Of a stretch of 50,174 nucleotides of DNA, positions 38,666 through 43,763 are shown in pieces. The number at the start of each line of letters is the position of its first letter. Position 1 is the first letter of the stretch. The DNA comes from Vulcanimicrobiota bacterium. Lineage in GTDB: Bacteria; Vulcanimicrobiota; Vulcanimicrobiia; Vulcanimicrobiales; Vulcanimicrobiaceae. The stretch lies in the NCBI GenBank assembly GCA_030038215.1, contig JASHPI010000155.1, positions 1 to 50,174 of the forward strand. The letters run 5' to 3'. The notes below the pieces were generated by a model that was not told the DNA's origin, ran no database searches, and was given only the letters and a program-made list of their open reading frames with translations. A program made the translations under genes and the position numbers.

Positions 38666-41146
38666 GTGAAGGATCCGGTCGAGTCGAGCTTCGGCTCGCT
38701 CTTACGACAGTTACGGTTGGAGCGGCGGCTCTCACAAGAAGAGCTGGCCGAACGCGCCCGCATGAGCGTCGCGGCGATCAGCGCGATCGAGCGCGGTAGC
38801 CGGCAGGCTCCGTACCGCAGCACCGTCGACCTCTTAGCCGATGGCCTCGCTATCGAGGGAGAGGCCCGTGCCCGGCTTCACTCGCTGGCGCAGCGGCGGC
38901 GTAAGGCTCGTGCCTTGCCGAGTCGTCTCGCGCCGGCGCGCAGCGTGCCGAATAATCTCCCCTTGCAGCTGACGTCGTTCGTGGATCGCACCGAAGAGCG
39001 AGCCAACGTTGAAGCCTTGCTGCGCAGGTATCGTCTGGTGACCCTGACGGGGGCCGGCGGCATCGGTAAGACGCGCCTCGCCCTCGAGGTGGCCTCCGAG
39101 ATGCTTGGCGTGTTTGAAGACGGCGCATGGCTTGTCGAGTTGGCCCCGTTGAACGACGGCGCTCTCGTTCCCAACGCGATTGCGACGGTTTTGGGCGTGC
39201 AAGAGGATCCAGGGCGCGCACTGCGCGAGACGATCAACGCCCAACTCAAAAGCAAGGCTCTGCTTTTGATCCTCGACAACTGCGAGCACGTTCTCGGCTC
39301 CCTCGCCGTTACCGTTGACGCGATGCTGCGCAGCTGTGCTGGGATTCGCGTGCTCTGCACGAGCATCGAGCCGCTCGGCATTGCCGGCGAGCACGTATAC
39401 TCCACGCCGTCGTTGCCGGCGCCGGCGCGTAACGTCACTTCCGCACTGACGGCGCCCGAAGCGCTCGGTTACGCATCGGTCGCGCTCTTCGCCGATCGCG
39501 CGCAGGCGGCGAATGCGAGTTTCGAGCTGACCGACGACCATGCGCCTATCGTGGGTAACTTGTGCCGGCGTTTAGACGGAATCGCGCTTGCCGTCGAGCT
39601 TGCCGCGGCACGCGTCGGCACCATGCCGGTCAAAACGCTGGCCGAGAAGCTCGATGAACGCTTTCGTCTGCTTACGTACGGAAATCGTGCCGGTCCTCGC
39701 CGTCAGCAGACGCTTCAGGCGCTGATCGATTGGAGCTACAATCTGCTCTCCGAATCGGAGCGGTCGCTATTCTGCAGGCTGGCGGCGTTCGCAGGCGGCT
39801 TCACGGTCGATCTCGCGACGGCGCTCTGGAACAAGCGTGACGCGCTCGACGTCTTGGGTTCGCTCGTGAAGAAATCGCTGGTGCAAACCGAGGTAGCCGG
39901 CGACGCTCCGCGCTATCGGCTGCTCGAGTCGACGCGCCTGTTCGCGCGCGAGAGGTTGATCGAACGGGACGAATTGGATTCGGTGAGCGCCGCGCACGCC
40001 GCGGCAATGTTGGAGCTCGCCGAGCGGCTGGAGATTGCCTACGAAACAATGCCGGACCGCGGCTGGAAGGCGCTCGCGGAGCCGGAGCTGGAGAACTGGC
40101 GAGCGGCGCTGGAGTGGTCGCTCGGCTCGCGGCGTGACGTTCCACTCGGCCAACGGCTTACGGCGGCGTTGAGTCCGATGTGGGCCACGCAAGCCGCGGT
40201 CGAGGGAGACCGATGGATTCAGGCGGCGATGGAGACGATCGACGAACGGACGCCGCTCGGAGTCGTCGCGCGCCTCGAACTCGCCGAGGCGAACATCGCG
40301 ATGTACCTCACTCTGTGGAAGCCGATGCTAACGGCGGCGCGGCGCGCGATGGAGTTGTTTGAACGCGCCGGCGACGCGGCCGGAGCAATGGAAGGCCGGA
40401 TCATCGCGGGCCGCGCGTTGGCGCTGCTCGGCGATGCCGGTGAGAGTGAGGCACTACTCGCGCCGTCGCTTGACGCGTGCTGGGCATTGAAGAAACCGCG
40501 CCTCGTCGGAATGGCGCTCGAAAGCCTCGCGATGGCGCGCATGACCGCGGGTGACGTCGCCGGCTCGCGTCCGCTCTACGCTCAGGCGCTCGCCGTGCTC
40601 GAGCCGATCGGCGCCGAACGGTCGCTCTCGAACGTCACCGTGAACTTAGCCGGCGCCGAGTTTCGCGGGGGCGATGCCGACGCCGCGTTGCGGTTGGCGA
40701 GTGGGGCGCTGGAAAAATATCGAGCCCTTAATAACCCGCGCGAGGTGCTGGTCATCTGCAACATCGCGGCGTATCTGGTCGCGCTCAGCCGCCTGGACGA
40801 AGCGCGCGACCAAGCCTGGAAGGGGCTGAACCTGGCGCTGGAGCGGCAGATGGATGTGCAAGTCACCTGGGCACTCCAACATCTTGCGGCCATCGCCGCC
40901 CTTCGCTATCGCGATGGCGACAAGCGCGCGGTCAACGCGCGTCGCCGCGCTGCCCGAATTCTCGGTTTCGTCGATGGGCGGCTCGTGGCGCTCGATACGA
41001 CGCGGAAGTACACCGAACAGCACGAGTATGCTGCGCTGCTGACGATGCTGCGCGAGGCTCTCGGGACCGACCAGCTCGCCGCCCTGCTCGGCGAAGGCGA
41101 GAGCTGGTCGATCCACGAGGTGCTCGAGGAGGCGCGCGGCGCCTGA
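38666..41146 (+). CDS. XRE-HTH / NB-ARC ATPase / TPR transcriptional regulator
   Basis: An 826-residue protein starting at GTG 38666. Residues 7-75 form an XRE helix-turn-helix (SLLRQLRLERRLSQEELAERA, AISAIERGSR). Residues about 100-450 form an NB-ARC-type ATPase with P-loop GAGGIGKT (129-136), Walker B LLLILDNCEHV and a GLPLA-like GIALAVELAA. The C-terminal half (about 480-800) is helical, TPR-like. Such proteins (COG3903-type predicted ATPases) are signal-transducing regulators resembling AfsR/LuxR-STAND proteins. It ends 3 bases from the convergent ycaO-tfuA locus; any control of that locus is inference. Confidence 0.9.
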   Translation: MKDPVESSFGSLLRQLRLERRLSQEELAERARMSVAAISAIERGSRQAPYRSTVDLLADGLAIEGEARARLHSLAQRRRKARALPSRLAPARSVPNNLPLQLTSFVDRTEERANVEALLRRYRLVTLTGAGGIGKTRLALEVASEMLGVFEDGAWLVELAPLNDGALVPNAIATVLGVQEDPGRALRETINAQLKSKALLLILDNCEHVLGSLAVTVDAMLRSCAGIRVLCTSIEPLGIAGEHVYSTPSLPAPARNVTSALTAPEALGYASVALFADRAQAANASFELTDDHAPIVGNLCRRLDGIALAVELAAARVGTMPVKTLAEKLDERFRLLTYGNRAGPRRQQTLQALIDWSYNLLSESERSLFCRLAAFAGGFTVDLATALWNKRDALDVLGSLVKKSLVQTEVAGDAPRYRLLESTRLFARERLIERDELDSVSAAHAAAMLELAERLEIAYETMPDRGWKALAEPELENWRAALEWSLGSRRDVPLGQRLTAALSPMWATQAAVEGDRWIQAAMETIDERTPLGVVARLELAEANIAMYLTLWKPMLTAARRAMELFERAGDAAGAMEGRIIAGRALALLGDAGESEALLAPSLDACWALKKPRLVGMALESLAMARMTAGDVAGSRPLYAQALAVLEPIGAERSLSNVTVNLAGAEFRGGDADAALRLASGALEKYRALNNPREVLVICNIAAYLVALSRLDEARDQAWKGLNLALERQMDVQVTWALQHLAAIAALRYRDGDKRAVNARRRAARILGFVDGRLVALDTTRKYTEQHEYAALLTMLREALGTDQLAALLGEGESWSIHEVLEEARGA

Positions 41147-41149
41147 TCG

Positions 41150-41470
41150 CTACGGTGACGAGTTGGTCGGGTCCGCTCCAGGCAGGGGCCCATTCATGCC
41201 GTTAAAGACAACAACAGCGTTGACTCGGTCATCCCTTTGCTGAACGTCGTCGGGAGTCGCGCAATAATATGCGTCCGCCGCATAAGCGCGCATGGCGGCG
41301 ATATCGGCGTCGGTTGGCGCTTCCTTCAATCCGAGCGTCGCCTGGATGAGCGCGCCCAGCCCGGCCCATTTGTTTTTCATACAGGTGACCCATGCATCGC
41401 GCACGTTCTTGTCTTCATAAAGCGCTTGGATGAAGCCGGCTGCCACGGCTTTCTGTTGTGTCGGGTTCAT
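41150..41470 (-). CDS. 106-residue candidate RiPP precursor downstream of ycaO
   Basis: ATG 41470 lies inside the last 56 bases of ycaO and has GAGAGGA about 6 bases upstream, so its translation looks independent yet coupled. The product is helical in the first two thirds (VAAGFIQALYEDKNVRDAW, LGALIQATLGLK, DADIAAMRAYAADAYY), like leader peptides of the nif11 or LigA type. It ends in a flexible, Gly/Pro/Asn-rich segment (NGMNGPLPGADPTNSSP). Cys30 and Cys70 are the only cysteines. Being third in a tfuA-ycaO-small gene unit makes it the best precursor candidate, but no known precursor family was recognised and it could be an accessory protein. Confidence 0.6.
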   Translation of the reverse strand: MNPTQQKAVAAGFIQALYEDKNVRDAWVTCMKNKWAGLGALIQATLGLKEAPTDADIAAMRAYAADAYYCATPDDVQQRDDRVNAVVVFNGMNGPLPGADPTNSSP

Positions 41471-42677
41471 GTTGTCCTCTCAACCGGTGCTCGGATGTGC
41501 CAAATGGATTTAGGGCCTCTCTGGCCTTTGGACCGATTCGTCCGTCGACGCACGTCGTTTCGAGCTCCGGAACGATTGCGCGAACGACCTTGACTGACAA
41601 ATTGGGCGGCGACAGATCGACGACCGTCGCCGAAGAGGCGCCGAACTGCGCGAGAGCCGATAGGATGCGCCTCACGTCCTCGGCCAGATCGTTGGTCGAT
41701 GAATCAGCAATAGACTCCAAGTCAACAGCATCCGCCGGAAGGTCGTAAAACCAAACGTCCTTCGGCGCTTTGGAAGGCCGGCGGGTGTGCTCCGTGGCTT
41801 GGGTCGCCGCATCGCCGGCGCGTAACGCATCATCACGAGCGCCGTGGATGTCAGTCAACCGGCTCTGCGCCGCTTCGGTGACCGCTCGGATGGCCGCGTG
41901 AGGGGGCGAGAGCGAACAGCCCAAACCGATATGAGACATCGGTGGATCGGATCCTTCCTCGACGATGCTTGCCAACATCACGGGAGGGAGGTGCGGCTCG
42001 TACAAGTGCATGATTCGCAACCGCAAGCCTTGCGCCGTGACGCACTCAACCAATCGGTCCAGGTCCGCGTTGCCGCTCGGTATCGTAACCGCGGACGCAA
42101 GCGCAAGGTCTCCGGCAGCCGGTCCCCATAGCATGCGCGGCAACCGTTCACATCGCATCTGGTAGAGTGACCACGCATGACGCTCGATCAGCTCGCAGAG
42201 CGCGTGATACGTCGCCTCGATAAGCGTATTTCCGGATGCCAAACCATTCGAGGTCGGAACGGGGAAGCTCGCATCTTTGGGCCGGCGCAGGTGCACTGCA
42301 TCGAGCGGCACCGGCATGTCGCGTCCGTTGAGGAGGTCGCGGCCGCCCAGGCAGTCCGCGCCGTCATAGCAGCGCGCGCGCGCCTGCAGCCATGGCGAAG
42401 CCGCGGTTACGCGTTCGACGGCCTCGAAAACGGCACTCGCGCGCGCCGCCTCCTTCGTCGGGCCCTTCCCATTGAAGACGGTCAGACCCGCCGCCGACGT
42501 TGGCACGATCGCGCAGAAGGTGGGAATGCCGATGCGATCGAGGCGCGTAATGTCGCCGACGCGCGTGATTCCGCAGCGCGCGCGAAGCTCCGCAACGAGC
42601 TCGAGCGTTCTTTCCAGCGGAACGCAACGATCGTAGGACCCGGGCACCTTGCGGTTAGAGGCCGTCAGGTCAAGCAT
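41415..42677 (-). CDS. ycaO: YcaO-domain cyclodehydratase/thioamide synthetase
   Basis: From ATG 42677, a 420-residue YcaO-family ATP-dependent enzyme that activates peptide-backbone amides. Visible family motifs: FNGKGPTKEAARASAVFEA-ER (residues about 68-89), ALCELIERHAWSLYQ (about 159-173), a C-terminal TEAAQSRLTDIHGARDD and VVDLSPPN-VKVVRAIVPELE. There is no PxPxP tail, as expected for TfuA-linked rather than azole-forming members. The ATG overlaps the tfuA stop by 8 bases. With TfuA it is expected to convert amides to thioamides; the partner and sulfur source are not encoded here. A longer start at 42725 lies inside tfuA. Confidence 0.93.
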   Translation of the reverse strand: MLDLTASNRKVPGSYDRCVPLERTLELVAELRARCGITRVGDITRLDRIGIPTFCAIVPTSAAGLTVFNGKGPTKEAARASAVFEAVERVTAASPWLQARARCYDGADCLGGRDLLNGRDMPVPLDAVHLRRPKDASFPVPTSNGLASGNTLIEATYHALCELIERHAWSLYQMRCERLPRMLWGPAAGDLALASAVTIPSGNADLDRLVECVTAQGLRLRIMHLYEPHLPPVMLASIVEEGSDPPMSHIGLGCSLSPPHAAIRAVTEAAQSRLTDIHGARDDALRAGDAATQATEHTRRPSKAPKDVWFYDLPADAVDLESIADSSTNDLAEDVRRILSALAQFGASSATVVDLSPPNLSVKVVRAIVPELETTCVDGRIGPKAREALNPFGTSEHRLRGQHEPDTTESRGSRLHPSAL

Positions 42678-43323
42678 AGGCGTGTCCGAGCCGAGCAAAC
42701 GCGCGCAGGACCCGACGCAGGGCAAATCGCGCGTCGACGCGCTTCAAATCGCCGTGTCTGGCGATTAGTGCACCGAGCGCCGCGCGAGCCTCCTCGGGCG
42801 CAAGCGCCAGCACGTCCTCCCAGGTTCGATCCGCGTAGAAGACTTCGCGTGCCTGCGCGACAAGCCGATCGGCCTCGGATCGCGCGATGATCCCGCGCCG
42901 CACCGCCAGATATGCCACGAAACGGATGTTTACCGAGGGAACGCTCAGCGCCGACTGCGTTCGCGGATCGACGGCCACCGCGACCTCATCGTCCCCGTCG
43001 ATAACCTCGCAAATATACCAGCGCGCGATGATACCGAGCGGGGCGAAGCCGTAGGGCGCGCACTCTGCAGCTCGCAGCGCGCCTAAGCTGGCGGCGCCGA
43101 AACAGCGAACGCGTTGCGCGGCCTTGTAGCACTCCTTGGGTGATGGCGCGAGGTCGTGATGAAAGACGCCATCTATTAAGAGGAGGTTATCGAAGCGCGC
43201 GGCGGCGCGCTCGATATCGCCGCGCGAAGCCGGCGGCAAATACGAAACATCCGCAAGCAGTAGCCGGTCTTCAGGCGCCAGCGAGGGGCCGCAAAATACG
43301 GCAAGGCTGCCTGACGAAGCCAT
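42670..43323 (-). CDS. tfuA: TfuA-like protein
   Basis: A 217-residue protein of the TfuA family (PF07812). Recognisable parts: VFCGPSL near the N-terminus, PPASRGDIERA (about 30-40), LLLIDGVFHHDLAPSPKE (about 47-64), RCFGAASLGALRAAE (about 72-86), and VIDGDDEVAVA (about 107-117). TfuA partners YcaO in thioamide formation (thioviridamide-type BGCs, methyl-coenzyme M reductase). The residue normally His in the H-KE motif appears replaced by Pro-Lys-Glu context here, so activity details may differ. It is the first gene of the tfuA-ycaO-small gene unit, divergent from the helical-protein gene at 43440. Confidence 0.93.
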   Translation of the reverse strand: MASSGSLAVFCGPSLAPEDRLLLADVSYLPPASRGDIERAAARFDNLLLIDGVFHHDLAPSPKECYKAAQRVRCFGAASLGALRAAECAPYGFAPLGIIARWYICEVIDGDDEVAVAVDPRTQSALSVPSVNIRFVAYLAVRRGIIARSEADRLVAQAREVFYADRTWEDVLALAPEEARAALGALIARHGDLKRVDARFALRRVLRAFARLGHAYA

Positions 43324-43439: not shown

Positions 43440-43763
43440 ATGTTCGACGTGATCAAGAGTTTCGCGGAGCAAGCCACTTCAGGGAATCTCGACTCGTCTC
43501 AAGTCAGTCAAGCGGTGAGCGATCATGTCAGCTCCGTCAGCGACGATCAGCTCAGCGATCACTTGCAAACGGCAGCTTCAAACCTGCAGCAAAACGGGCA
43601 GGACGATTTGGCGCAGCAAGTCACCGGCCTAGTGGAGCAGATTAGCTCGAATCCATCCGGCGCGCGAGACACGATCGTCTCGTTCGTAACAAACAATCCG
43701 TCGGTGCTCCAGCACTTCGCGCCGGAGTTCGCGCAGGGCATCACCTCAAGGCTCGGTCTATGA
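43440..43763 (+). CDS. Small helical hypothetical protein
   Basis: A 107-residue, helix-rich, Gln/Ser-rich soluble protein (MFDVIKSFAEQAT, QVSQAVSDHVSSVSDDQLSDHL, NPSVLQHFAPEFAQGI) with no cysteine and no signal peptide. AAAGGAG upstream of the ATG supports the start. It is divergent from tfuA across 116 bases and has no visible relation to RiPP genes. No family recognised. Confidence 0.65.
   Translation: MFDVIKSFAEQATSGNLDSSQVSQAVSDHVSSVSDDQLSDHLQTAASNLQQNGQDDLAQQVTGLVEQISSNPSGARDTIVSFVTNNPSVLQHFAPEFAQGITSRLGL

Follow-up and report, generated by a model that had tools for sequence, protein, structure and literature searches.

The tfuA-ycaO locus on the minus strand of the window, by which is meant the whole 50,174-nucleotide stretch of DNA that was analysed, is, judging by sequence comparison, probably a minimal thioamide-RiPP operon in which a 106-amino acid gene encodes the precursor. 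This precursor belongs to a new, phylum-restricted family within a known kind of system. The window constitutes the entire contig C228 of a 2.35-Mb MAG (85% complete) of Candidatus Eremiobacterota, and its TfuA shares 89% amino acid identity with the TfuA encoded on JASHXG010000020.1 ('Candidatus Eremiobacterota bacterium isolate JOPF251').

As had been described in the sequence-only reading of this DNA, the tfuA (42670..43323; 217 aa) and ycaO (41415..42677; 420 aa) genes overlap by eight bases (42670-42677) on the minus strand, while the predicted RiPP precursor gene (41150..41470, minus strand) begins within the end of ycaO and has its own ribosome-binding site. The ATG of the precursor gene is at 41470, which gives a 56-base overlap with ycaO, and a Shine-Dalgarno-like AGAGGA sequence (41475..41480, minus strand) is situated four nucleotides 5′ of the ATG. 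The coupling of the small gene to ycaO, which was claimed in the same reading, stands by virtue of co-inheritance but not by virtue of the overlap, which is not conserved in relatives. In the nearest relative (G016) YcaO terminates with ...NPFSMFKVPF* ahead of the small gene, and in most other relatives it ends close to that NPF. The YcaO of the window carries approximately 25 extra C-terminal residues, which overrun the beginning of the small gene; these look like the product of the loss of a stop codon, which is the simplest origin. A functional coupling through the overlap was rejected, the overlap being only a local extension of ycaO, and the genes are instead coupled via co-inheritance. 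Divergent from tfuA is a 107-amino acid gene (43440-43763, plus strand) which is 97% identical in G016; homologues are absent from the other loci compared, and Pfam and NCBIfam give no convincing match.

The translated tfuA product matches the TfuA family (PF07812; Bitscore: 100; e-value: 8.8e-29; cut-off: 30), identifying it as a thioamidation partner protein, and aligns nearly end to end with structure 6xp8 (e-value: 8.5e-25). Amino acid identity of TfuA across the phylum ranges from 56 to 89%, with S79 and K194 invariant. A Ser-Lys catalytic pair has reportedly been described for TfuA, and we take S79 and K194 as candidates only for this pair. The ycaO product (PF02624; Bitscore: 184; e-value: 7e-54; cut-off: 25.7) is predicted to be an ATP-dependent, backbone amide-activating enzyme that forms thioamides. 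Across 25 homologues the residues E85/E88/R89, N144GLASGN, E162/E165/R166 and E268/Q271/R273 are invariant or nearly so, and these motifs we presume to make up the ATP-binding site. The pair thus has the features expected of TfuA-YcaO clusters, namely adjacent tfuA and ycaO genes, ATP-binding motifs that appear intact and conserved TfuA residues; in 11 genomes of the phylum the two genes are fused in a single reading frame. The best-scoring subfamily models and the nearest solved structures for both proteins are those of the McrA-thioamidation pair (MJ1094, 6pe3; PMC5589413), with the window YcaO matching the MJ1094 structures 6pe3/6peu at an e-value of 2.8e-32. Both proteins nevertheless miss the equivalog cut-offs of these models (YcaO against TIGR03266, 202 of 365 bits; TfuA against NF033432, 151 of 235 bits), which is expected for enzymes acting on another substrate, and the window YcaO is divergent from the characterised YcaOs. 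The Eremiobacterota TfuAs form one clade (SH-aLRT 100), separate from the methanogen TfuAs.

Pfam and NCBIfam contain no family matching the 106-amino acid protein. Profile searches of 149 genomes of the phylum identified in-frame homologues in 28 of these which, together with a leader dN/dS of 0.09, indicates that the gene is a true coding sequence. In a 22-sequence alignment the N-terminal 60-70 residues are conserved, with A10, G47, L48, P52 and D56 as conserved columns, while the C-terminus is short and variable, a pattern that had been anticipated for the third ORF. The predicted leader domain (residues 1-67; 41270..41470, minus strand) is modelled by AlphaFold2 as four helices across residues 3-67, with pLDDT values that are mostly 86-96 across residues 1-60 and drop to about 70 across residues 61-70, followed by a short low-confidence helix and an unstructured tail, with a mean pLDDT below 50 from approximately residue 80. 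A Foldseek comparison of this model against the PDB yielded no significant match. Nine sequences of one genus gave dN/dS values of 0.087 for the leader, 0.31 for the linker and 0.128 for the core; by this measure the leader evolves under purifying selection, and the core combines invariant P, V, G and Q with a variable hydrophobic stretch. Between the window and G016 the precursors share 55-56% amino acid identity, as compared with 89% for TfuA and 84% for YcaO.

The predicted core of the window precursor, VNAVVVFNGMNGP (residues 83-95, as approximate boundaries; 41186..41224, minus strand), lies in a region predicted to be disordered (pLDDT around or under 50) and is followed by a window-specific tail. 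It aligns with the ...VGFFVLMQH-type ends of relatives and deviates from the VG...MQ pattern of most of them, the equivalent region in G016 being VNPICIFNGANGP. Across the family this C-terminal stretch is short, variable and mostly hydrophobic, with APKTVGFFVLMQH, APRHVGLVFLMQQNL and VVNHVGSFMMMQQG as typical examples. A small precursor with a conserved leader and a C-terminal core is thus encoded beside the enzymes, as is characteristic of TfuA-YcaO clusters. In one genome (L088:7687-8154; L088/G050) the precursor contains five copies of a 14-amino acid repeat that follow the pattern DAPSHVGxGFVVQ at a spacing of 42 nt, while a second locus (L091:3144-3518) encodes a precursor with two cores and three precursor genes occur in tandem in G023. 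The third gene had been proposed to be either the substrate or an accessory, and the repeated cores and tandem copies favour the substrate. As an accessory, the small protein would act as an adaptor or recognition element bringing YcaO-TfuA to another protein substrate, which we consider unlikely. The predicted folded helical domain and the constant company of ycaO would suit such a role, and the thioamidation of large proteins is known for McrA (PMC5589413) and uL16 (PMC13063428). However, neither two to five repeats of a disordered C-terminus nor up to three divergent tandem copies would be expected of an accessory, the C-terminus is short and variable, and McrA was not detected. The lack of a methyl-CoM reductase gene, originally noted for the window, extends to the whole MAG, where at 85% completeness no MCR_alpha match was obtained while methanogen controls were positive; as no McrA was detected in the genome, McrA was rejected as the substrate.

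Thioamidation is the best reading of the chemistry predicted for this locus, and is preferred on the basis of the YcaO motifs and scores, the presence of TfuA, the cores free of Cys, Ser and Thr, the presence of ThiS and ThiF and the failure to detect McrA. ThiS, in two copies, and ThiF are encoded in the MAG, with one ThiS sharing contig C161 with ThiF. TfuA is reported to hydrolyse a protein thiocarboxylate (PMC13063428). By analogy, the window TfuA may function as a hydrolase of thiocarboxylated ThiS and as the partner of YcaO, and ThiS and ThiF could provide a thiocarboxylate of the kind that TfuA hydrolyses. Azolines and amidines are also formed by YcaO enzymes. That the window YcaO modifies the precursor by forming azolines or an amidine, and no thioamide, would be compatible with a family capable of both, of which an amidine-forming member has been described (PMC8442711), and with the divergence of this YcaO from characterised enzymes, but we judge it quite improbable. 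The locus encodes a TfuA, in relatives often as a fusion with YcaO, and the window showed neither a cyclodehydratase partner nor a dehydrogenase at this locus. The PxPxP C-terminus of azoline-forming YcaOs is absent from YcaO among the 25 homologues, and the window YcaO scores 202 bits with the thioamidation model and 93 bits with the SagD-type model (TIGR03604). Azol(in)e clusters of the TOMM/SagD type are further characterised by Cys, Ser or Thr in the core, which the window core VNAVVVFNGMNGP lacks, although the tail after it contains them; several other family cores, e.g. APRHVGLVFLMQQNL, likewise lack these residues, and azolines therefore cannot be the common product of the precursor family.

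The distribution of the small gene closely follows that of the enzymes. The close TfuA type, defined as matches with an E-value below 1e-90, is found in 26/149 genomes, and the small gene is present in all 26; the conserved third ORF expected beside related tfuA-ycaO pairs was thus found throughout, and no close homologue of the pair was without it. In the remaining two of the 28 genomes with the small gene (G081 and G089), the ycaO gene beside it is cut by the contig end. In every case the small gene is found no more than a few kb from ycaO or, where the contig ends, next to a ycaO remnant, and in G030 and G052, where tfuA is located on a separate contig, it is accompanied by ycaO and a LuxR-type regulator. 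The co-occurrence of TfuA and the small gene has a Fisher p of about 5e-27 which, being uncorrected for the relatedness of the genomes, is an indication of strength rather than a calibrated probability. That the small gene is a chance neighbour, functionally unconnected to tfuA-ycaO, is scarcely credible: the physical overlap in the window is indeed merely a local ycaO extension, but the co-occurrence is complete and linkage to ycaO is kept where tfuA sits elsewhere. In the genus of the window the locus occurs in just 2/18 genomes, and a neighbouring metallophosphoesterase is confined to the same two. A search seeded with a single family member returned no plasmid-borne relatives of the precursor.

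The flanking genes vary among the 28 genomes with the small gene. A SAM methyltransferase gene is located inside the locus, beside ycaO, in 17/28, and a peroxiredoxin and thioredoxin-like pair, mostly situated directly upstream of tfuA (e.g. L074:8233-9269), occurs in 15/28, while a convergent AAA_16-LuxR regulator is encoded in 25/28. None of these three features occurs in the window or in G016, in both of which the convergent place is taken by an XRE-NB-ARC-TPR protein. In the window this regulator-like protein (38666..41146, plus strand) combines XRE-HTH (PF13560), NB-ARC/AAA and TPR matches. The family has 3-22 paralogues per genome in the genus of the window, on account of which the regulator was not counted among the constant components of the locus, and its association with the locus in the window is uncertain. 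An OPT oligopeptide transporter gene is found near the AAA_16-LuxR regulator in six genomes (e.g. L079:14871-16865). No transporter or protease tied to the locus was found in the window. The three-gene minimal locus suggested by the sequence-only reading holds for the window, which has the minimal set, but such a set has a precedent in thiovarsolin B, and relatives often add the methyltransferase.

For thiovarsolin B of Streptomyces, a precursor, YcaO and TfuA (varA/varY/varT) suffice, and in that family the precursors vary from one without repeats to others with as many as five repeated cores (PMC6511847). The thiovarsolin clusters share the core set of precursor, YcaO and TfuA with the window locus. 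They belong, however, to a different phylum and their precursors contain APR repeats, whereas the Eremiobacterota family has a folded leader of approximately 67 amino acids and cores of the VG-hydrophobic-MQ type, alongside TfuAs that form a clade of their own. As a further difference from the thiovarsolin clusters, heme-oxygenase-like, ATP-grasp and amidinotransferase genes did not come to light next to the window locus, although none was the object of a targeted search. TfuA clusters with Nif11-like precursors have also been described in Cyanobacteria and Proteobacteria by Malit et al. 2021 (PMC8120280), including a fused tfuA-ycaO gene; Eremiobacterota are unmentioned in the main text of that paper. 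As in the locus described here, TfuA-YcaO is accompanied in those clusters by small precursors whose N-terminal leader is comparable in size, but unlike in Nif11-like precursors no Gly-Gly cleavage motif is evident in the Eremiobacterota precursors. Of 21 precursor members, one matched the Nif11 family (PF07862; e-value: 0.0089) and the others gave no match, while the comparison of the precursor profile with known Nif11 precursors gave an hhalign P of 0.35. Membership of the Nif11 family was consequently set aside, the layout being similar and one weak Pfam match being available, but the profile comparison giving no support. Seven tandem Nif11-type precursors, most with Gly-Gly, were observed approximately 5-8 kb from a TfuA gene on contig C74 of Hyella patelloides (G148). 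As a predicted compact thioamide-RiPP locus, the window locus is ordinary in kind, and is new in its precursor family and host phylum. A search of the openly accessible literature, with subscription papers and antiSMASH/BiG-FAM tables outside its reach, returned no report linking Eremiobacterota with TfuA or thioamitides.

The scheme that follows, from the reaction and its target residue to the removal of the leader, is inferred from the gene content, as are export and the role of the product. The folded leader of approximately 67 residues would recruit YcaO and TfuA, and would be followed by a flexible linker and then by a short, mostly hydrophobic C-terminal core, about VNAVVVFNGMNGP in the window. 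YcaO would consume ATP to phosphorylate, and so activate, an amide of the core backbone, and sulfide would be supplied by TfuA, probably through the hydrolysis of thiocarboxylated ThiS charged by ThiF, such that oxygen is replaced by sulfur in one or more peptide bonds. Candidates for the modified position are the bonds flanking the conserved Val-Gly of the relatives. The core would then be freed by an unlinked protease. Instead of an antibiotic, the product may conceivably be a signalling peptide, short, hydrophobic and thioamidated, that is sensed by the convergent ATPase/LuxR (or XRE-TPR) regulator and re-imported by OPT in some species, but this we hold to be doubtful. If it were true, backbone thioamidation would protect or tune a peptide pheromone.

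The minimal gene set, the TfuA-YcaO fusions, the folded leader and the single- and multi-core variants together make this family a handy system for the study of substrate recognition and bond choice, for which the multi-core precursors of L088 and L091 are good expression targets. With thioamidation as the preferred reading of the locus, ribosomal thioamide peptides would be extended to a phylum without described examples in the literature searched.
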